NCBI GenBank assembly: GCA_029777885.1
Contig: JAKORJ010000131.1
Span: forward strand, 1 to 37,875
Length of the DNA stretch: 37,875 nt
Direction of reading: 5' to 3'
Source: Bacillota bacterium
Lineage (GTDB): Bacteria > Bacillota > Clostridia > Caldicoprobacterales > DTU083
Position 1 is the stretch's first letter. Every line of letters begins with the position of its first letter. Shown here piece after piece: positions 18,829-37,875 of this stretch. Position numbers and translations under genes: made by a program. Below the pieces are notes generated by a model. That model was not told the DNA's origin. It was given only the letters and a program-made list of their open reading frames with translations, and searched no databases.

Positions 18829-21237
18829 TTATTTCACAACCACGTTCAGGATGCGGCCCGGTACATAGATGACCTTTACGACCGTCTTATCCAGGAACAC
18901 TGCTTTTAGCTTTTCATCCTCAAAGGCCTTTTGCTGCACTTCTTCCTGGGTGGCTCCGGCAGGTACCGTGATCTTGCCCTTGACCTTTCCGTTGACTTGG
19001 ACTGCTATTTCGACGACCTCATCCACCGTTTTGGCTTCATCCCACTTGGGCCATTCTTCGTCTGTGATCCGCGTCCCGCTGCCGTACATCGACCAGAGCT
19101 CCTCGGTTATATGAGGCGCTACGGGGTTCAGGAGTATCATCAGGGTCTTGAACTCGCCCCTGGTTATCCTGCCTGCCGCATAGAATTCGTTGACCAGGGA
19201 CATCATTGCGGCTATGGCCGTGTTGAACTTCAGGGTTTCAAAATCCTCGCTGACCTTCTTTATCGTGCGGTGGACACTGGTCTCAAGCTCCGGCGAGTAA
19301 TTTTCATCATCCGTCAGGAATTCAGGGAGCCTCCATACCCGGTCCAGGAACCTCCTGCAGCCTCTTACGCCGTTTTGCGACCAGGGCGCACTCTTTTCAA
19401 AGTCGCCGATGAACATCTCGTACGTCCTGAGCGTATCGGCACCGAACTCATTGACTATATCGTCGGGATTGACCACATTGCCCCTGGATTTGGACATCTT
19501 CTCGTTGTTTTCGCCCAGGATCATGCCGTGGGAGGTGCGCTTCTTATAAGGCTCCGGAGTCGGCACTACGCCGATATCATACAGGAACTTGTGCCAGAAC
19601 CTTGAATACAAAAGGTGCAGGGTCGTATGCTCCATGCCCCCGTTGTACCAGTCGACGGGCAGCCAGTATTCAAGGCTCTCCCTGGAAGCCAGCTCCTTGT
19701 CATTGTGAGGGTCAAGATATCTGAGGAAGTACCATGACGAACCCGCCCACTGGGGCATGGTATCCGTCTCGCGCTTAGCAGGCCCGCCGCACTTGGGGCA
19801 GGTTGTATTGACCCAGTCCGGCATGTTGGCCAGGGGTGACTCACCGGTGTCTGTCGGCTCGTAGCTCTCGACCTCGGGCAGCAGGAGCGGAAGCTCCTCT
19901 TCCGGGATCGGCACCCAGCCGCACTGGTCACAGTGGACCAGCGGTATAGGCTCCCCCCAATACCTCTGGCGGGAGAATACCCAATCCCGCAGCTTATAGT
20001 TGACCTTTGCCCTGCCCAGGCCCTTTTCCTCCAACCATTTTGTAATTGCTTCTTTGGCTTCTGCCACCTCAAGGCCATTTAGGAACCCTGAGTTGACCAT
20101 TACGCCTTTCTCAGTGTCGGTATAGGGCTCTTCCTCCACATTGCCCCCTGCCACGACCTCTACTATTGGCAGGTTGAACTTCTTTGCAAACTCCCAGTCG
20201 CGGGTATCATGCCCCGGAACGGCCATGATAGCACCTGTCCCATAGGACATCAGTACATAGTCGGATGTGAATACCGGTATTTCCTTGCCCGTTGCGGGGT
20301 TTACAGCCTTTATCCCCTTCAGCTCGACTCCTGTCTTCTCCTTTGAAAGCTCCGTGCGCTCAAAGTCGGACTTTTTATTGGCATACTCCCGGTAACTCCT
20401 GATCTCATCCATGTTTTCGATCCTGTCCTGGAGCTTGTCGATCAGGGGATGCTCAGGGGATATGACCATATAGGTAGCACCAAAGAGGGTATCAGGCCGC
20501 GTAGTGAACACCTTCAGCTTGTACCCCCCGGTCACCTCGAACTCCACTTCAGCGCCGGTCGAACGGCCGATCCAGTTCTCCTGCTGTATCTTGACCCTTT
20601 CGATGTAGTCAACGGTGGCAAGGTCATTGAGGAGGCGTTCGGCATACTCGGTGATTTTCAGCATCCACTGGTTCTTGACCTTCCTTACGACCTCGCTGCC
20701 GCAGCGTTCGCAAACCCCGTTTACCACCTCTTCGTTGGCCAGGCCGACCTTGCAGGAGGTGCACCAGTTGATGGAGGATTCGCTTTTGTATGCAAGACCT
20801 TTTTCAAAGAGCTTCAGGAATATCCACTGGGTCCATTTATAATAGTTCGGATCCGTGGTATTTACCTCCCGGGACCAGTCGAAGGAATAGCCCAGGGACT
20901 TCAATTGGGCCTTGAACCTGGCCACGTTCCTTTCCGTGACTATCCTCGGGTGGATCTTGTTTTGTATGGCATAGTTCTCCGTGGGCAGGCCAAAGGCGTC
21001 CCAGCCCATGGGAAAGAGCACATTGTACCCCTGGAGCCTGCGCTTGCGGGCAACGATGTCAAGGGCCGTGTAGGGCCTTGGGTGCCCTACATGGAGCCCC
21101 TGCCCCGAGGGGTATGGGAATTCCACCAGGGCATAGAATTTTGGCTTTTGCTTATCCTCGGATGCACGGAACGTACCTTCCCTGTCCCATATATCCTGCC
21201 ACTTTTTTTCGATCGCTTTTGGATTGTATTCATGCAT
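18829..21237 (-). CDS. leuS: Leucyl-tRNA synthetase
   Basis: 802 aa; [24 protein letters not shown]1 editing region [29 protein letters not shown]. Confidence 0.98.
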
Positions 21238-21287: not shown

Positions 21288-21583
21288 AGAAAAAAGGCCT
21301 TCATCCTCCATAGAGACGAAAGCCCGCGGTACCACTCTATTTGCCGCTTACAGGCACTTCAGCGCATTTGCCCATAAAACGGCCACCTTGAAAAGATAAC
21401 GGCTTTACCGGCCAGGGCTACTAAGGTTCACCCAGGCAGCTCCGGGACGAGTTCGGCCCTCGTTTTTGCACGCCTTTCACCGGTAATGGCGGCTCTCTTT
21501 GAAAAACGGCCGGGCTTACTACTTCCCTTCATCACTTATTACAACAGCTCACATTGCATATGATTGGCACTAAAATACTATTG
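21288..21583 (-). promoter_or_regulatory. T-box leader (Leu, specifier CUC) upstream of leuS
   Basis: Minus strand: AGAGAGCCGCC...GGTGAAAGGCG stem I region, specifier context GAACTCGTCCCGG (CTC at 21449-21451), T-box sequence AGAGTGGTACCGCGGGC, then GGCCTTCATCCTCCATAG...GGAGGATGAAGGCCTTTTTTC terminator. Confidence 0.93.
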
Positions 21584-28309: not shown

Positions 28310-29221
28310 TCAGCCGATCATCGCCTTATCACAGCCAAAGGCTTTAAGCCTTTCAAGCCACGACCTCTTTGTCGCCTCATCCGTTGTCGGCAGCATTTCC
28401 ATCTCGGGCTTGCGGCCGATCCTTTCGTATTTATCATATCCCATGTTGTGATAGGCCATTAATTCGATCCCCGCAAGATTAGGATACTTCCTGCCTATTT
28501 CAGCGATGCCTTTTAAGTGCTCATCCGTATCGTTTATCCCCTTGACTAGTGGGCAGCGCAGTATGATGCGGGCGCCTTTCTCGTAAAGGAAGTCCAGATT
28601 GTCCAGGATAAGCCTGTTGGAAACGCCCGTGAGTCTCAGATGCTCATTATCATCCGTGGCCTTGTAGTCATAGAGGAACAAGTCGGTATATGGGACTACC
28701 TTCTCAAATAACTCCCTGGGGGCATAGCCGCTTGTGTCCAGGCAGGTATGGATGCCCTGGTCCTTTGCGGCCTTTAAAAGCTCCAGGGTGAACCTGAACT
28801 GGGACATGGGCTCGCCACCGGATATTGTCATACCACCGCCTGAGTTGTTGTAATAGGCGATGTCCCTGACGACTACATCCATGACTTCCTGTACGCTTTG
28901 CTTCCTGCCTATTATCTTCAGCGCCCTGTTGGGGCAGGCCTCTATACATTTTGCGTTAAGGCAGCACTTGCCATAGTCGACTGCATGCTTTCCATCTACT
29001 ATTTTATGGGCGCCCGCGGGACAGGCCGCAACGCACCGGAAGCAGTTGGCACACTTGGTCTTGTCAAAGGAGAGCTGGGGTTCAAAAGCCTGTGACTCCG
29101 GGTTGTGGCACCACAGGCAACGCAGGGGGCAACCCTTCAGAAATACCGTTGTCCTTATCCCTGGACCGTCATGCAGGGCAAATCGCTGTATATCAAATAT
29201 CGTTCCCTGGACTTTTTCCAT
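28310..29221 (-). CDS. Glycyl radical enzyme activase (radical SAM, with bis-4Fe-4S ferredoxin-like insert)
   Basis: GTIFDIQRFALHDGPGIRTTVFLKGCPLRCLWCHNPESQ (CxxxCxxC), CANCFRCVAACPAGAHK and CCLNAKCIEACPNRAL, GGMTISGGEPMSQ. ATG 29221 has a GAAAGGCAGG site; the ORF extends to 29254. Confidence 0.92.
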   Translation of the reverse strand: MEKVQGTIFDIQRFALHDGPGIRTTVFLKGCPLRCLWCHNPESQAFEPQLSFDKTKCANCFRCVAACPAGAHKIVDGKHAVDYGKCCLNAKCIEACPNRALKIIGRKQSVQEVMDVVVRDIAYYNNSGGGMTISGGEPMSQFRFTLELLKAAKDQGIHTCLDTSGYAPRELFEKVVPYTDLFLYDYKATDDNEHLRLTGVSNRLILDNLDFLYEKGARIILRCPLVKGINDTDEHLKGIAEIGRKYPNLAGIELMAYHNMGYDKYERIGRKPEMEMLPTTDEATKRSWLERLKAFGCDKAMIG

Positions 29222-29257
29222 ATTCGCCTGCCTTTCGCAGCTAGCTTTGATCATGCG

Positions 29258-31495
29258 TCAATACAGGGTCCTGTGGAGAATATCGAGCTGCACGTCCCTG
29301 CCGAGCTCTACAAAGCGTGCACTGAAACCGCCTACGCGCACAAAGATATGGTGGTACTTCTCCGGCTCCTCCATTGCCCTTTCCAGGTCATTGCGGTTCA
29401 CTACCGTGATCATTGCCTGGGCACCGCCCTTCTGGAAATAGGTCTTTAGCAGTGCTTCCAGCTCCGCCCTCCTGGTGGTGAACATCTCCCGGCTGAACTT
29501 CATGTTCTGCACAGCCCCGGCATGGATATGGGTGCTGGGCTTGACTATTGAATTCAGCATGGCGGTGATGCCGTTTTTGTCCATGCCGCTCATCGGCGCA
29601 TTACCGTTGTTCATATACAGCCCGCTCTTTCTGCCGTCGGCTGAGGCTGAAGCCTGGTGCCCCATGAGCGCGTTGGCGCTGTTGTTGATTATAACTACGA
29701 GGTACGAATGCAGGTTTGTCCGGTGCTTCTGGTTCCTTACCACGTTGCACACATGGTTGTGGACTTTCAGGAGCATTTCATCTGCAGTATCATCGTCATT
29801 GCCGTACTTTGGCGCATCCAGCAAGAGCTGACGGATGTCCTCATAGCCTTCGAAATCCGCATCCAGGGCTGCAAGGAGCCGGTCCTTGCTGATGACCTTC
29901 TCATCATACACCAGCTTCTTTATAGCAGTAAGGCTGTCAGCCGTATTCGTGTTGCCATAGGTCTCCAGGGTGCCTCCCAGGTACCTTACGCCGCCGGAGA
30001 ACATGCCCTTGCCCCGCTCCAGGCAGTCGTCGTATAGCATGCTCATGTACAGGAAGGGCGCCGTCTCCCCGGCTATCTTGTACTCAAGCTCCTCATGGTC
30101 CGCCATGATCTCAACGAAGTATTCGACCTGCTTTTTATAAGCTTCAAACAGATCATCAAAGGTCTCAAAGTCCTCAAACCTGCCCAGGGCGAGGCCCATC
30201 TTCCTGCCGGTCATCGGATCGATGCCGTTGTGCATGGTGACCTCGAGGGCTTTGAGCAGGTTTATGACCCCGCTGGGTGTACCGAAGCTCTGATGGTCGA
30301 TAATATATTCACCACAGCCGAAGGGCACATATTGCTCAGCTACCTCAGTGCAAAAACCAAATGCCTCTTCTACCGCCTTAATGTTAACATCGTCATTGTA
30401 CAGAATCGGGTATGTCCTGCCCTCCCCGATAACATCAAGGGCTTTTTCAAACAGGGCCGGGTTCATGCCCTCATAGAAGCGCAGGGACAGCTGGGGTTCG
30501 ACCTCTAGTACCCGCCTTGTAGCTTCCATGGCCAGGAGGGCGAATTTGTCGGCGTTTTCCTCGTTGCGCCTGCCCTTACCGCCAATGATCACCCGCCCGT
30601 GCACCCGGGTGTTGCGGTCCGCGATCAGCTGCCAGAGGGATTCAAGGTACCTCAGGGCTTGATCTTCCGTCAATACGCCGGACTTAAGGTCGTTTACATA
30701 AAAGTCTCCCAGGTAGACATCCATCCTGCCCAGATTCCTTACATCAGCGACCAGTGAGTATAGCCACATGAGCTGGATGGCTTCCCACAGGTGGGCCGGC
30801 TTCTCCTGTGTTATTTTTTTCAGTGTATTGCCCATCAGCTTAAGCTCTTCAGCCCGCTCCTTGGTTTTGGCTGTTTCCGCCATCTCCAAGGCCATATTTG
30901 AGAAATACAAACAGGTATCAACAAAGACATCAAGGGCGATTTTTGCGCCTTCGTAGAATTTGACGTCCCTACCGTCCCTTTCAGCATTTTGCCTGTACCT
31001 CTCAACTTCGTCATATAGGCCGGGAATGCCTATCTGCATGAGCTTATCAAAATTGATGTAGCCTCCGCAAAGCCTGTACAGGGGGAAGGATATGCCCGAC
31101 TGGTTCATCCAGTCATCAGTATAAAGCTCCTTTGCCATTTTCTCCGGAAATGCCCGGCGCAGCTTCGTGGACGTATTCTCCTCCCTCCAAAATTCAAGCA
31201 TGTCCTTTACTGCCTGCCTGTAGTCCTCATCGAGGGATGGATCCTCGATCTCTGCCAGGAGCCTGTGCTCTATGCAATAATACCCGAATGAAGTCGGTCC
31301 CCATTCGTCGGGAGTAATGCCGACCGCGGGCAGGTCCAGCCGGCCTACGAACAGGTCGTTATCCTTTATGCCGCCGAGAAAGCCCGGAAATTGTGCTTTA
31401 AGGCACATGGCCTCCCGTATGGCGATATGCTCATCCTTATACTTCTTGTACACTTCTGTAAAGTGTAACTCTCTGGTAAGTTTTCCTATTGCCAT
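29258..31495 (-). CDS. Glycyl radical enzyme (pyruvate formate-lyase superfamily), substrate unknown
   Basis: 745 aa; C-terminal glycyl radical loop HIFVRVGGFSARFVELGRDVQLDIL; active-site Cys in EQYVPFGCGEYIIDHQSFG; adjacent activase. Confidence 0.92.
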   Translation of the reverse strand: MAIGKLTRELHFTEVYKKYKDEHIAIREAMCLKAQFPGFLGGIKDNDLFVGRLDLPAVGITPDEWGPTSFGYYCIEHRLLAEIEDPSLDEDYRQAVKDMLEFWREENTSTKLRRAFPEKMAKELYTDDWMNQSGISFPLYRLCGGYINFDKLMQIGIPGLYDEVERYRQNAERDGRDVKFYEGAKIALDVFVDTCLYFSNMALEMAETAKTKERAEELKLMGNTLKKITQEKPAHLWEAIQLMWLYSLVADVRNLGRMDVYLGDFYVNDLKSGVLTEDQALRYLESLWQLIADRNTRVHGRVIIGGKGRRNEENADKFALLAMEATRRVLEVEPQLSLRFYEGMNPALFEKALDVIGEGRTYPILYNDDVNIKAVEEAFGFCTEVAEQYVPFGCGEYIIDHQSFGTPSGVINLLKALEVTMHNGIDPMTGRKMGLALGRFEDFETFDDLFEAYKKQVEYFVEIMADHEELEYKIAGETAPFLYMSMLYDDCLERGKGMFSGGVRYLGGTLETYGNTNTADSLTAIKKLVYDEKVISKDRLLAALDADFEGYEDIRQLLLDAPKYGNDDDTADEMLLKVHNHVCNVVRNQKHRTNLHSYLVVIINNSANALMGHQASASADGRKSGLYMNNGNAPMSGMDKNGITAMLNSIVKPSTHIHAGAVQNMKFSREMFTTRRAELEALLKTYFQKGGAQAMITVVNRNDLERAMEEPEKYHHIFVRVGGFSARFVELGRDVQLDILHRTLY

Positions 31496-31637
31496 ATCGA
31501 TCTTCCTCTCAAAGCCGCATCTCTGACTATTTTTGATATATATATATAAACATAAAATTGCTTTCCAAATTAATTATATGAAAAAATACAGCCTGTTTGC
31601 TTTATACAAATTGCATCATACAAGTCATTAAAGTATC

Positions 31638-31668
31638 AAAGCTGCTGCATTTGTTGTACAGCAGCTTT
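31638..31668 (-). terminator. Hairpin downstream of lipoprotein 1 (terminator-like)
   Basis: Perfect 10-bp stem AAAGCTGCTG / CAGCAGCTTT. Confidence 0.5.
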
Positions 31669-31695
31669 AATGTCCATATAAATCTGCTAAAAGGG

Positions 31696-32355
31696 TCAAT
31701 TGAGCTCAACACTCAAATCGGTGATCAGGAAGCTTGCCTTGGGCAAGTTGTTTCCGTCAAAGACGAAAAAGATCATATCGCCTTCCTTTACTTCCACTTC
31801 CTTGCCTTCAAATATGTTGTCTCCGCTGGCTGTCGTGGTGGCGCTGAACAGCTCCTCCCTATTCTTAAGTATAGTAACTATCCCGCCGTCCAGCTTGTTT
31901 ACCATATCCTGATATTCATATGCTGTGAAGTCCCATCTGCCGATTTTGGCCGTACCGTCCTGGTATGCCCTCCATCCGATGATGATCTTGACATTCAAAT
32001 CGCCATAGGGGCCGGCCCATACATAGTTTTGATGCACGCCTTCCGCATCGTCCTGGTCAAAAATCGAATAATACACATTGTCCACAGTCGGGTGATCCGA
32101 ATACTGCCAGTTGTCTCCCCATTCCTCTGTGTAATACAGCTCCTTGTACCCGCTGCCATCATCAAAGAGATAGAACCAGACGGGTCCCTGCTCCTTGTCG
32201 CCCTTGACCGCATCTTTGAAATAGACTATCTTGTCTTCTTCCTTGACTTCAGTTACCTGCGGCTTATATGGTGAGGTGTCTTCCGCGGGTTTGCTGCAGG
32301 AAGCAGTCGCCAGCAGTATTATGCCTGCCAATAGTACAGCCAGTACTTTTTTCAT
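31696..32355 (-). CDS. Small secreted lipoprotein (paralogue 1), unknown function
   Basis: 219 aa; MKKVLAVLLAGIILLATASCSKP lipobox (ATASC); RBS TAGGAGG; beta-rich body VKIIIGWRAYQDGTAKIGRWDFTAYEY...EVKEGDMIFFVFD. Confidence 0.85.
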   Translation of the reverse strand: MKKVLAVLLAGIILLATASCSKPAEDTSPYKPQVTEVKEEDKIVYFKDAVKGDKEQGPVWFYLFDDGSGYKELYYTEEWGDNWQYSDHPTVDNVYYSIFDQDDAEGVHQNYVWAGPYGDLNVKIIIGWRAYQDGTAKIGRWDFTAYEYQDMVNKLDGGIVTILKNREELFSATTTASGDNIFEGKEVEVKEGDMIFFVFDGNNLPKASFLITDLSVELN

Positions 32356-32429
32356 CTATTTTATCCTCCTATTAAAACAAGATAACCTAATGACTGACAC
32401 ATGTTGCTAATTACCATAGCAATTTAATA

Positions 32430-32455
32430 GAGCTGCTGCATTGCTGCAGCAGCTC
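32430..32455 (-). terminator. Hairpin between the tandem lipoprotein genes
   Basis: Perfect 10-bp stem GAGCTGCTGC / GCAGCAGCTC, similar in sequence to the hairpin at 31638-31668. Confidence 0.5.
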
Positions 32456-32474
32456 ATTTAGCTCAGGTTGCTAA

Positions 32475-33125
32475 TTATTCCAAGGTAACGGACAGAGTAT
32501 CAAGGGCATGATGAGCAGTGGAAGCATCCTTGCTGTCGAATACGAAGTAGATGAAGTCGCCTTCTTTAACTTCTACTTCGGTACCTTCGTAAACATCTCC
32601 GCCCTCAGCGGTGGATGTACCTGTCCAGATCTCTGTATCGTTGTGGAGGATGGTGACCTTGGAGCCAGCTACAAAGCCTTCAAGGTTGTTTGATCCGTCA
32701 TAAGCTGTATAGTCCCACTCACCGATCTTGGCAGTGCCGTCTTTATATGCGCGCCATCCGATGATTATCTTGACATTGACGTCTCCCCACATACCGGCAT
32801 TGACCTTTAGGCCTTCCCAGTCCATAAGTGAGTAGTAAACCTGGTCAACAGTGGGATTCTCGGAATACTGCCAGTTGTCGCCCCATTCTTCTGTATAATG
32901 GAGCTCTCTTATGCCTGTACCGTCATCGCACAGATAGTACCATACAGGACCGTTTTCCTTGTCACCTTTGTATGCATCTTTATAGTTGGCGATCTTGTCA
33001 GCATCTGTCACAGTAGGAACTTCAGCCAACCAGTCGGGTTTATTGACCTCCGGCGGCTTCTTTGTGCAAGCTGCGAAAGCCAGTACCATAATCCCGACCA
33101 ATAGCAGGGATACTAATTTTTTCAT
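32475..33125 (-). CDS. Small secreted lipoprotein (paralogue 2), unknown function
   Basis: 216 aa; MKKLVSLLLVGIMVLAFAACTKKP lipobox (AFAAC); RBS GAGGAGG; extended blocks shared with paralogue 1 (EEWGDNWQYS, VKIIIGWRAY.DGTAKIG, EVEVKEGD). Confidence 0.87.
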   Translation of the reverse strand: MKKLVSLLLVGIMVLAFAACTKKPPEVNKPDWLAEVPTVTDADKIANYKDAYKGDKENGPVWYYLCDDGTGIRELHYTEEWGDNWQYSENPTVDQVYYSLMDWEGLKVNAGMWGDVNVKIIIGWRAYKDGTAKIGEWDYTAYDGSNNLEGFVAGSKVTILHNDTEIWTGTSTAEGGDVYEGTEVEVKEGDFIYFVFDSKDASTAHHALDTLSVTLE

Positions 33126-33164
33126 TTTGATTTTTCCTCCTCGAAATGTGTAGGATCTTTTATC

Positions 33165-33893
33165 TTATTGAAACCTTAGCTTTCTGCTCAATACAACGAT
33201 ACCGGTCAGAGCTGCAAGGCCGAGAACTACGAACATAACAACTGAGCTGTCACCGGTCTGCGGGGGCTCTTCTTCATTGGGCTCTTCGGAAGCTGCAGGG
33301 GCTTCTACTTCTTCAACTTCGATGTCAAAGTACAGGCTGGCCCAACCAGTTGCTCCTGTTCCAAAGAAGTATACACGATCTCCTGCTTTTAATGACAAGG
33401 TCTTGTTGATGTTGACTACAAAACCCTCTTCCTGCTCAACAGCTTCAGAAAGTACTTCTTCAGCATTCTTCTTGACCTTCAATGTACTAGCGGGCTGACC
33501 GAACGCATTTGTAACTGTCCCGGTTATCTTGAATTCTCCGTCGTTAGGTGCAACAAAGGCTATAGCACTGCTTCTGCCCTCGCCATCCTGATTGGTTTCA
33601 AGTTCTGTAGGCCTATCGATATTCTTGCCAACGCCGCAATAATCGTCAGTGGCAATAAACCAGCCTTTGTACTCTTTTCCTTCATAATCACGGGTCTCGT
33701 TTGAAGTTAAAGCTTCAAAATTTGTCCCGTCGGAAGTAATGAAGTACATCCACGGTACGTTTGATGCATCGTTTTTCTCATGATCAAAATCAGCCAATGC
33801 ATCATACTTGTCACCAACGGCAGCAAATGCGGACACAGTACCTAGTGCCAGTACCAGAGCAAGCGCCAAAACAACTGATAATAGTTTCTTCAT
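33165..33893 (-). CDS. Secreted protein with LPXTG-like (PPQTGD) cell-wall sorting tail
   Basis: Signal peptide MKKLLSVVLALALVLALGTVSAFA; C-terminus PPQTGDSSVVMFVVLGLAALTGIVVLSRKLRFQ (motif + TM + basic tail). ATG 33893 follows AAAGGGG; the ORF extends to 33911. Confidence 0.82.
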   Translation of the reverse strand: MKKLLSVVLALALVLALGTVSAFAAVGDKYDALADFDHEKNDASNVPWMYFITSDGTNFEALTSNETRDYEGKEYKGWFIATDDYCGVGKNIDRPTELETNQDGEGRSSAIAFVAPNDGEFKITGTVTNAFGQPASTLKVKKNAEEVLSEAVEQEEGFVVNINKTLSLKAGDRVYFFGTGATGWASLYFDIEVEEVEAPAASEEPNEEEPPQTGDSSVVMFVVLGLAALTGIVVLSRKLRFQ

Positions 33894-34031
33894 TATTAAT
33901 ACCCCTTTCATATGATTTTATTATTTATAGTCACGGAATTTTCTCCGTGAAGACTATACATGGATATTGGTTTATACTGAGATAACGTTTACTCAGCCGA
34001 AGCTCTAAGTATGTATGTTATAACTACATAC

Positions 34032-34060
34032 ACTATAGCATATATTTTTGTACAAATCAA
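34032..34060 (-). promoter_or_regulatory. SigA-like promoter for the secreted-protein array
   Basis: Minus strand TTGATT-17 bp-TATAGT with TGC extended -10. Confidence 0.7.
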
Positions 34061-34084: not shown

Positions 34085-35119
34085 CTACAGTTCTGTTATC
34101 AAGGCCATTATTTCGCTGAGCTCTTTTAATTCCTCTTCCTTGTTTGCATGGTCAAGCGCGTTTTCTATAAAATCGATTACCTTGGCCTTGTCCACCCCTT
34201 GTAATGGGGTGATCCTTTCAAAGTTCTTGTGCAGTATTTTCTCCAGGAATTCCCTGCTCAGGCCTATGCCATGAAGCTCCAGGTCCCAGGCCTTGAAGGG
34301 CTTGTCGTCAAACAGGAAGCTGTACATCAGGCTGTTTATGACATCCTTTATCTCCTTTTCTTCCTGGGGATCGACATCGTAGTTGTCCGTACCGAATATG
34401 ATCCGGTCCTGGTACTTCTCGAAGAAGGCTCTGGCAATCGCTGTATCCTGGGCAAAGTCAACATACATTTCTGTGCCGGGCGTTATATCATAATACAAGT
34501 TGGGATACTCCTCAAGCAGGTCTCCTGCTCTCTTCAGGTCATCGGACATAAAGAAGAAGTGTGCCAGTATCAGCTTCAGCTGCTTATGCTTTTCCAGTAC
34601 CCCGATCACTTCCTGGGTTATCTCTTCTTTTGACAGAAAAGTCCCGTCCGTATACAGCCATCCGCTTTCCTTGGCAAAGGAGGGCGCTTTGGACTCATCC
34701 CAGAATACAGCTGGGTCTGCTGCGTGGAGCAACACGGGTATACCGTTTTCCTCACAATAACTGTAAAAGGGATCATAGACCGGGGCGTTCAAGGGGATGC
34801 CGATCTTCTTCCTGGGACCGGGCTTGCCCTCTATCATTTTGAAACCGTCAAAGCCCAAATCGTATAATGCTTTGGCTTGAGAAAGGAAATCATCATCGGA
34901 TTTGTAGCTTAGGCCTGCAAAGGCATAATCTCCGGGAGACAGCAGCTTAAAGGCCAAACATTTTGCATTCTGCAGACTGCCGGTCGCTTCAAGGCTCAAT
35001 ATATTGACCTTATCATAGCCGTAGCGTTCCTTTTGCTTTTTCAGTATCCCGATTCCGTCAGCGCCGCCCATGATGTGGATATGGCAATCGATCACCCGGA
35101 TTCCTTTAAAATTGAACAT
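34085..35119 (-). CDS. Amidohydrolase-family (TIM-barrel metal-dependent) hydrolase
   Basis: MFNFKGIRVIDCHIHIMGG, GIPVLLHAADPAVFW, LKLILAHFFF, IIFGTDNYDVDP. ATG 35119 follows GGGCGGGGG; the ORF extends to 35167. Confidence 0.82.
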   Translation of the reverse strand: MFNFKGIRVIDCHIHIMGGADGIGILKKQKERYGYDKVNILSLEATGSLQNAKCLAFKLLSPGDYAFAGLSYKSDDDFLSQAKALYDLGFDGFKMIEGKPGPRKKIGIPLNAPVYDPFYSYCEENGIPVLLHAADPAVFWDESKAPSFAKESGWLYTDGTFLSKEEITQEVIGVLEKHKQLKLILAHFFFMSDDLKRAGDLLEEYPNLYYDITPGTEMYVDFAQDTAIARAFFEKYQDRIIFGTDNYDVDPQEEKEIKDVINSLMYSFLFDDKPFKAWDLELHGIGLSREFLEKILHKNFERITPLQGVDKAKVIDFIENALDHANKEEELKELSEIMALITEL

Positions 35120-35220
35120 ATAACCCCCGCCCTTAACATTTTCAGTTTTCGTATATAATACTAGCAAAATATCATATAGGTACTTGCTTAGCCTGTTATG
35201 CCTATATTTTTAAACGAAGC

Positions 35221-36096: not shown

Positions 36097-37029
36097 TTAT
36101 AATCCCCTTTGTGCCATGAACTCAGCCACGTCCTCGGCAGTGGGCAGGGACGGCTGGGCCCCCATCCTGCTGACACAAATGGCGCCGACCGCATTGGCAT
36201 AGGGCATTGCCTTCCTGATGTCATTGTACTCGATCATCTTCAGGGTCATGGCAGCAGTAAAGGAGTCGCCGGCTGCTGTCGTATCAACGGCCTTGACCTT
36301 GAAAGCGGGGAATATTTCGTGCTTGCCGTCCTCATAGAGCAAAGCGCCCTTTTCACCGAGCTTGATAAGCACGTATTTGGCCTTGGTTTCCCTGGCCAGG
36401 AACCTTGCAGCCTCCAGGGCACTTTCCTCGTCCTGCACCCTTATACCGGTTATAGCCGATGCTTCGCTCTCATTCGGGCTTATGACGCTTATGCCTTCAA
36501 ACCGTGAAAGGTCGAGCTTCATTGCCGGGCCTGCGTCCAGTATGACCGGGATCCCCTTTTCCGAAGCCTTTTTGTATGTATAATATACTGTCTCCAGGGG
36601 TATCTCAAGCTGCATCATCACCGCATCATAGGATTCCTCAAGGGCTTTGTCCACGTCTTCCTTTGAGACCCGGCCGTTAGCGCCGGGGAACACTATTATC
36701 CTGTTCTGGCCAGTGGCATCCACAGGGATGACTGCAAGCCCCGTCTGAGAGTCCTTGTCCTTTGTGATATAAGCTGTATCCACGCCGTTCTTCCTTAAGT
36801 TTCCGAGCAGGATCTCACCGTTGGCATCATCCCCGACCCTGCCGCAGAAGGTCACATCTGAGCCCAGGCGGGCTGCTGCTACTGCCTGGTTTGCGCCTTT
36901 GCCACCGGGTATGTATGTATAGGTATCTCCAAGTACTGTTTCACCCGCTTCAGGCGCCCGCTCCAGGCTCATGACCAGGTCCATGTTGATGCTGCCGACA
37001 ACCAGTATACGAACTTTGCTTTTATCCAT
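36097..37029 (-). CDS. rbsK: Ribokinase
   Basis: 310 aa; GSINMDLV, YIPGGKGANQAVAAARLGSDVTFCGRVGDD, VDTTAAGDSFTAAMTLKM. Confidence 0.92.
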   Translation of the reverse strand: MDKSKVRILVVGSINMDLVMSLERAPEAGETVLGDTYTYIPGGKGANQAVAAARLGSDVTFCGRVGDDANGEILLGNLRKNGVDTAYITKDKDSQTGLAVIPVDATGQNRIIVFPGANGRVSKEDVDKALEESYDAVMMQLEIPLETVYYTYKKASEKGIPVILDAGPAMKLDLSRFEGISVISPNESEASAITGIRVQDEESALEAARFLARETKAKYVLIKLGEKGALLYEDGKHEIFPAFKVKAVDTTAAGDSFTAAMTLKMIEYNDIRKAMPYANAVGAICVSRMGAQPSLPTAEDVAEFMAQRGL

Positions 37030-37107: not shown

Positions 37108-37136
37108 TAAAGGTTCAGCTTACTAAAGGTTCAGCT
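37108..37136. repeat. 16-bp-period tandem microduplication of the 3' end of the last CDS
   Basis: TAAAGGTTCAGCT at 37108-37120 and 37124-37136. Confidence 0.85.
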
Positions 37137-37875
37137 CGAATATATCATAGGGTACCAGCTCTATATCGAATATCCCGGATGCCTGCTTCACACCCTCAAG
37201 TATATTGATCAGCGTATTCACTACCCGGACGGTGATCGTGTTTTTGCCCGGTTTCACAAGATCGGTGATATCGATCTCATAAGGCTTCCACAGGCATACC
37301 CCGGCCTTTGCCCCGTTCACATCGGCTTCGAACACGTCGCGCCCGGGATCAGCCTTGAGAACCAATCTCTTGCCGGCATACTCGGCCGGGAGCTCGAATT
37401 CCCTTGTGTATTCCATGGTGCCTGAATAGTACGGGAAGCCCTGGGGCACAAAATCGCCGGTGCTTAAGGTATCGACAGGAGCGCAGATAGTATCGGCGCC
37501 GTCCTTTTCAAAGACCGTGAATGTACCGATCACCTTCAAAAGGTCCACCATACCGTCGGATTTCTTGTTGACTGTAAGCAGGACCGCGATCGTGTTGGTG
37601 CCTTCTTTGAAATATGCGGATACAGGCACTTCCTTGATCTCAGCATCAAGGTAGCTGCGAACAGGCTCTTCGGTCACAGCTAAGCCATTTATGAACAGCT
37701 TGTAGTCGCTGCCCTTGAAGCCGTCGATCATCAGCCTCAGATCAGCCGGTACATACTCCGCTTTAATCCTGGTCACATACCACAGCCTTACAGGATAGGT
37801 ATCCTCGTCCCTTTCAGAAGGAAGCTGGGCTTCCCAGGCACCCATCCTGAAGTCATAGAAGCCTTCGAAGGAGTA
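37123..37875 (-). CDS. Glycoside hydrolase-like protein, C-terminal galactose-binding/jelly-roll region (5' end outside window)
   Basis: Frame runs open to the window edge (YSFEGFYDFRMGAWEAQLPSERDED...). Repeated beta-sandwich patterns FEADVNGAKAGVCLWKPYEIDITDLVKPGKNTITVRVVNTLINIL and YKLFINGLAV...VSAYFKEGTNTIAVLL are typical of GH2-like or GH106-like accessory domains. Confidence 0.7.
   Translation of the reverse strand, partial: YSFEGFYDFRMGAWEAQLPSERDEDTYPVRLWYVTRIKAEYVPADLRLMIDGFKGSDYKLFINGLAVTEEPVRSYLDAEIKEVPVSAYFKEGTNTIAVLLTVNKKSDGMVDLLKVIGTFTVFEKDGADTICAPVDTLSTGDFVPQGFPYYSGTMEYTREFELPAEYAGKRLVLKADPGRDVFEADVNGAKAGVCLWKPYEIDITDLVKPGKNTITVRVVNTLINILEGVKQASGIFDIELVPYDIFELNL

Follow-up and report, generated by a model that had tools for sequence, protein, structure and literature searches.

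What do three small secreted proteins, encoded in a row beside genes for sugar catabolism, do at the surface of a clostridial cell? The genes, referred to here as A, B, and C, are located in a window of 37,875 nucleotides, which is a single contig (JAKORJ010000131.1) from the 2.05 Mb, 249-contig draft genome of a Bacillota bacterium (Clostridia; Caldicoprobacterales; DTU083; assembly GCA_029777885.1). The array is also present in a sister genome, from one other species of the genus examined, where it lies on contig JAKPIB010000037.1. Both genomes are metagenome-assembled. An initial inspection of the window, the sequence-only reading, described three short co-directional genes and proposed synteny with relatives as a check. 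All three genes are found on the minus strand and co-occur in the sister genome with the same order and neighbours. From upstream to downstream, the minus strand of the window encodes:

37126..37875 (-), GH106-like protein, of which the contig end leaves the C-terminal part; the sister genome has it in full (L030 3449-6718)
36100..37029 (-), ribokinase, above the cut-off of TIGR02152
35224..36084 (-), nucleoside hydrolase (IU_nuc_hydro), family match
34088..35125 (-), amidohydrolase (Amidohydro_2), family match
33168..33893 (-), gene A, encoding a leader, one module copy, an acidic stalk, and PPQTGD followed by a transmembrane segment and a basic tail
32478..33125 (-), gene B, encoding a probable lipoprotein that has a single module copy and an insertion specific to B and C (EEWGDNWQYS..PTVDxVYYS)
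31699..32355 (-), gene C, encoding a probable lipoprotein that is a paralogue of B
29261..31495 (-), glycyl radical enzyme of the PFL2-3 group, followed by its activase at 28313-29254

The sugar-catabolism genes that the sequence-only reading saw beside the array belong to a locus with a GH106-like protein, an ABC importer, and a sugar kinase. Farther upstream in the sister genome, this locus includes ABC permeases, solute-binding proteins, two alpha-amylase-type proteins, a ROK protein, and RpiB. The window contig stops short of that region, and the importer components were seen in the sister genome. Judged by the features of a gpPUL (PMC5320581), enzymes are represented by the GH106-like and alpha-amylase-type proteins, assigned by family match only, and transport by the ABC permeases and solute-binding proteins of the sister genome. 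The sole candidate regulator seen is the ROK protein upstream in the sister genome.

One module common to the three proteins

Proteins B and C, which are 216 and 219 residues long, are 56% identical and are clear paralogues. A C protein of unrelated fold had been named as the finding that would speak against the array; C is a homologue of B. The relationship of the 242-residue protein A to B and C is not apparent from direct comparison. BLAST of A against B and C found no similarity past the leader and N-terminus, and a profile comparison of A with B and C alone was weak, with a probability of 29%. The kinship would fail on these two comparisons; it was settled by an HMM built from 19 module copies in large extracellular clostridial proteins, from which A, B, and C had been left out. 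This independent HMM matches A with an E-value of 2.7e-9, B with 8e-10, and C with 2.8e-9, and the orthologues from the sister genome with values of 1e-9 to 2.4e-7. No further ORF among approximately 480 was reported at E-values up to 10, and the best E-value from 6000 shuffles of A, B, and C was 0.24. Because the independent HMM matches all three proteins and does not match the shuffles, the architecture that they had been proposed to share is common to them beyond chance. As judged from sequence, A, B, and C each carry one copy of the same module. Matches of the A8 profile to the three proteins were rejected as evidence of homology, because that profile includes A, B, and C and the argument would be circular.

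The module was likened in the sequence-only reading to an accessory, probably carbohydrate-binding part of large clostridial extracellular glycosidases, and copies recognized by the same HMM are indeed present in proteins with carbohydrate-active domains. Profile searches of class-level relatives with B and C identified related stretches within large proteins, and a wider profile identified more. In these secreted proteins, the module accompanies sialate O-acetylesterase (SASA), GH2/NPCBM, GH10, esterase, and beta-helix domains. The copies have in common the core pattern W..., (W/F).AP.DG..kI, ..kn...iw, and V..GD.iyF, and all those found outside the A-B-C array belong to longer open frames of about 480–2300 residues. 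In being discrete modules within carbohydrate-active enzymes, the enzyme-borne copies have one of the features of carbohydrate-binding modules in the CAZy sense. The module has no match at the cut-off to a CBM or other family in Pfam or NCBIfam and no sequence relative in the PDB.

The enzyme-borne copies, exemplified by a SASA-esterase (G277), a GH2/NPCBM protein (G183), and a nine-module protein (G235), are the same module by HMM; however, they form one part of larger proteins, whereas in A, B, and C the module makes up nearly the whole mature protein, has its own anchor, and has an altered C-terminal motif. The motif N..D...WNP, which is located near the C-terminus of the enzyme-borne copies, is absent from A, B, and C. 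Therefore, the ligand site of the three proteins may differ or be lost, which counts against glycan binding. The nine-module protein (L047 5171-10303) is secreted, 1710 residues long, and encoded by a gene that adjoins one of GH32 type.

The module may be a beta-sandwich of the jelly-roll type, with which the predicted structures agree without providing proof. AlphaFold models calculated from few input sequences are of low confidence (pLDDT 60 and pTM 0.62 for B, 55 and 0.58 for A); they are mostly beta and have a similar strand order. Foldseek searches with these low-confidence models yielded TM-scores of about 0.3–0.5: the first matches of B are to CBM6 and CBM35, with PA14 sugar-binding domains lower, and the best matches of A are to TNF-like jelly rolls, with some to CBM6.

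Anchoring and transcription of the array

The module appears to be displayed in two ways, as had been proposed, with one module encoded per gene and a sortase tail in A as opposed to lipoprotein-type leaders in B and C. Protein A, with a start at 33893, has the sequence features of a sortase-anchored wall protein: a Sec-type leader and, at the C-terminus, an (x)PxTG motif in the form PPQTGD with a hydrophobic stretch and a basic tail behind it. The C-terminus noted in the sequence-only reading is confirmed by the NCBIfam LPXTG model TIGR01167, which the tail passes with 22.2 bits (22.2–26 overall) against a cut-off of 15.9. The tail is among the two top-scoring sortase tails of the genus. Both genomes encode a sortase that is closest to class B enzymes (SrtB-like, in a 302-residue frame). 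For SrtB of C. difficile, SPxTG and PPxTG are the proposed sorting motifs, and SPKTG is cleaved in vitro (PMC4371152). Protein A resembles the substrates of this enzyme in its PPxTG-type tail and in the presence of an SrtB-like enzyme in the genome; by contrast, its cargo is a single CBM-like module. We infer that A would be exported and then fixed to the peptidoglycan of the cell wall by the class B sortase of the genome. After the class B sortase gene, both genomes encode a long protein composed of MORN-like repeats, YEGEWKDG (L120 1108-3498, G000:C5; L121).

Proteins B and C have leaders of the lipid-attachment type and are probably lipoproteins that would stay attached to the outside of the membrane in a presumably monoderm, sortase-bearing host. 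The previous assignment of both as lipobox lipoproteins holds in so far as their leaders end in a cysteine that fits the loose PROSITE PS00013-type pattern and the sister-genome orthologue of C has the strict lipobox LVSC; however, B and C of the window genome, with FAAC and TASC, do not match the strict form [LVI][ASTVI][GAS]C.

Four non-coding features flank or separate the three genes:

34032..34060 (-), sigma-70-like promoter that precedes A, with the form TTGATT-N17-TATAGT and an extended TG, from a consensus scan
33926..33958 (-), hairpin (TATAGTC..TCACGGAGAAAATTCCGTGACTATA) that closely precedes the ribosome-binding site in the 5' leader of A
32430..32455 (-), hairpin in the gap between B and C that has a perfect 11-bp stem and a GCAA loop and is unchanged in the sister genome
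31638..31668 (-), hairpin downstream of C (AAAGCTGCTG...GCAGCAGCTTT), z -3.3, conserved in the sister genome

The array had been described as preceded by one promoter. The promoter-like site (34060-34032) is present and nearly invariant in the sister genome, although matches to the consensus are no more numerous than chance predicts (8 against 5.8). However, the conserved hairpin in the 119-nucleotide gap separates B from C, and the inclusion of C in the same transcript is tentative. The stretch containing this hairpin has a folding energy of -26 kcal/mol and a z-score of -3.75. Genes A and B are likely to be co-transcribed, because the gap between them is only 39 nucleotides long; it is without a hairpin. 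The hairpin in the 5' leader of A has fold z-scores of -3.9 and -3.1 in the two genomes, which differ in it by one substitution. Short hairpins of differing sequences apparently occur just upstream of the ribosome-binding site in three sets of displayed proteins, at 33926-33958, before 5466 in L031, and before the gene ending at 253 (-) in L032.

Displayed modules of the genus and divergence of A

In the window genome, a profile search finds the module confined to A, B, and C. When 84,980 species were scanned with a pattern for genes like B and C, the sister genome alone was identified, and single-sequence searches of 99 relatives produced, outside the genus, weak matches only, mostly to leader peptides or tails. 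Among the genomes searched, the standalone module is restricted, as far as sequence comparison reaches, to this genus. The genome encodes other small sortase-tailed proteins with one or two CBM-like modules each, most of which have a counterpart in the sister genome. Further standalone sortase-tailed CBM-like loci in the two genomes are:

L031 5466-7605 and L128 13631-15092
L032 253-1482 and L035 2346-3611

The L031 locus, on contig C143, encodes three tailed proteins in a row that adjoin a GH26+CBM35 gene and have matches below the cut-off to the mannanase galactose-binding domain and CBM35. The tails encoded by its genes 1 and 2 are nearly identical, and the modules differ. Contig C192 encodes a tailed protein that is CBM4_9-like and galactose-binding-like. 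Relatives from the same family have sortases, and none of their few readable tailed proteins is a single CBM-like module. A search of the open-access literature found no described array of single-CBM proteins that combines sortase and lipoprotein anchoring.

Comparison of the two species singles out one part of A:

33348..33773 (-), apparently exchanged part of the A module, residues about 41-182, with saturated synonymous divergence from the sister gene (L030 9950-10678)

Protein identity between the two species is 96% for B, 92% for C, and 66% for A; over the module, the identity of A is 57%, with the core motifs kept. Other compared genes of the locus have 83–92% DNA identity and a dS of about 0.4–0.8. 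Within A, dS is 0.40 in the leader and 0.27 in the stalk and tail, and reaches about 2.2 in the module. Identical fourfold sites number 8 of 31 in the module, 33 of 42 in the leader and tail of A, and 672 of 966 in the neighbours (Fisher p 1e-6, with segment boundaries picked post hoc after the data had been seen). Selection at the protein level alone leaves dS unraised, and replacement by a diverged homologue raises it. Therefore, the wall-displayed module of A was apparently replaced by a diverged homologue between the species, and the leader, tail, and neighbours were not. Positive selection as the sole cause of the divergence was rejected, because the synonymous sites are also saturated. 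No leftover paralogue of A was found elsewhere in the sister genome. Similarly confined divergence is seen in the galactose-binding-like protein beside GH26 and in the first module of the C192/C17 protein, and the tailed CBM35-like protein has no such pattern. It is a tentative and rather doubtful generalization that the genus displays binding modules apart from its enzymes, on a fixed leader and sortase tail in which the module can be swapped by recombination, and that species could thereby re-specify binding at the wall while the membrane-proximal binders and enzymes stay constant.

Possible function and known systems

With a probability of about 0.6, A, B, and C serve a sugar-utilisation locus as non-catalytic proteins that bind glycans at the cell surface, with one displayed on the wall and two on the membrane. 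Carbohydrate binding is suggested because of the company that the module keeps elsewhere. The three proteins would hold polysaccharide or released oligosaccharides near the glycosidases and the ABC importers that the adjacent locus encodes, and may be co-expressed with this locus. The class B sortase and the other standalone tailed CBM-like proteins beside the GH26 gene count for this function. The lack of a CBM family at the cut-off, the poor models, and the limitation to two metagenome-assembled genomes count against it.

The module could instead serve as a spacer that has a structural role or binds proteins, in the manner of an adhesin or by self-association, in which case A, B, and C would organise the envelope or mediate adhesion and be unrelated to the sugar genes. 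The module is not known to bind a ligand, its conserved C-terminal motif is lost in the three proteins, many of the Foldseek matches of A are to protein-binding TNF/C1q folds, and the array has its own promoter-like site and hairpins. However, the enzyme-borne copies repeatedly accompany carbohydrate-active domains, and the genus has further standalone tailed proteins that are similar to known CBM families, which makes a spacer unlikely. The presence of the same module on both layers and of importer components in the sister-genome locus would also suit a relay from wall to membrane, in which A catches an oligosaccharide and hands it to B or C and then to the ABC importer. Such a relay would be analogous to the Isd system, in which wall-anchored NEAT proteins pass haem inward; the NEAT domain has no Pfam match in A, B, or C. 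Protein A is distant from B and C in sequence, though, and the apparent exchange of its module, in which B and C did not take part, fits poorly with a co-adapted hand-off, so that a relay seems quite improbable.

The exchange itself invites yet another explanation, that A acts much like a surface antigen and that pressure from phages or predators drives the replacement of its exposed module, with glycan binding being secondary. It would account for saturated synonymous divergence that is confined to the modules of A and two other tailed proteins, the leaders and tails of which are more alike. However, the incoming module of A belongs to the same family, is 57% identical, and keeps the core motifs, and exchange did not affect one of the tailed proteins, which is CBM35-like; we regard such an antigen-like role as very unlikely. 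Glycan binding at the surface remains the preferred function of the array.

The statement of the sequence-only reading that no system of this kind has been described was too strong, because there are known examples of surface proteins that bind glycans without catalysis. The SGBPs of Bacteroidota (SusE/SusF/SGBP) are binding-only surface proteins (PMC10318527). If binding is confirmed, A, B, and C would resemble them as non-catalytic surface binders encoded beside genes for glycan degradation and import. Unlike the SGBPs, the array is without SusC/SusD (no such pair was found among the Pfam-scanned proteins of the locus), is of Gram-positive type, and has single modules displayed on wall and membrane. 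Sas20 and Sca5 of the Ruminococcus bromii amylosome are starch-binding proteins, of which Sca5 has a sortase signal (PMC9112005). They are likewise non-catalytic glycan binders at a Firmicute cell surface; however, Sas20 is docked by cohesin and dockerin, both are multi-domain, and neither has lipoprotein versions of the same module. The A-B-C locus shares with a gpPUL the combination of degrading enzymes and an ABC carbohydrate importer (PMC5320581), and differs in holding three binding-only proteins. What is new is the undescribed module, its display as a single copy per protein by two kinds of anchor, and the exchange that the module on the wall appears to have undergone.

The module is missing from the family libraries searched, yet is found repeatedly in carbohydrate-active proteins of clostridia. 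A, B, and C contain little besides it and are well suited to studies of its fold and ligand. Should binding be confirmed, the array would correspond, in a Gram-positive cell, to the SGBPs of Bacteroidota, with binding split from catalysis and distributed over two layers. Exchange of displayed modules between sister species would be a testable route by which environmental bacteria change the glycan specificity of their surface.

Two other features of the window were recorded. The glycyl radical enzyme has a GCGE motif at its apparent active-site cysteine and scores below the cut-offs of all named dehydratase and lyase families. Together with its activase (28313-31495), it is kept with the amidohydrolase, nucleoside hydrolase, and ribokinase; a relative that is 60% identical is located at a contig end in one family member (G004). 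An ordinary T-box leader (21309-21541 (-); Rfam, 112 bits) lies upstream of a leucyl-tRNA synthetase-like gene at 18829-21237.
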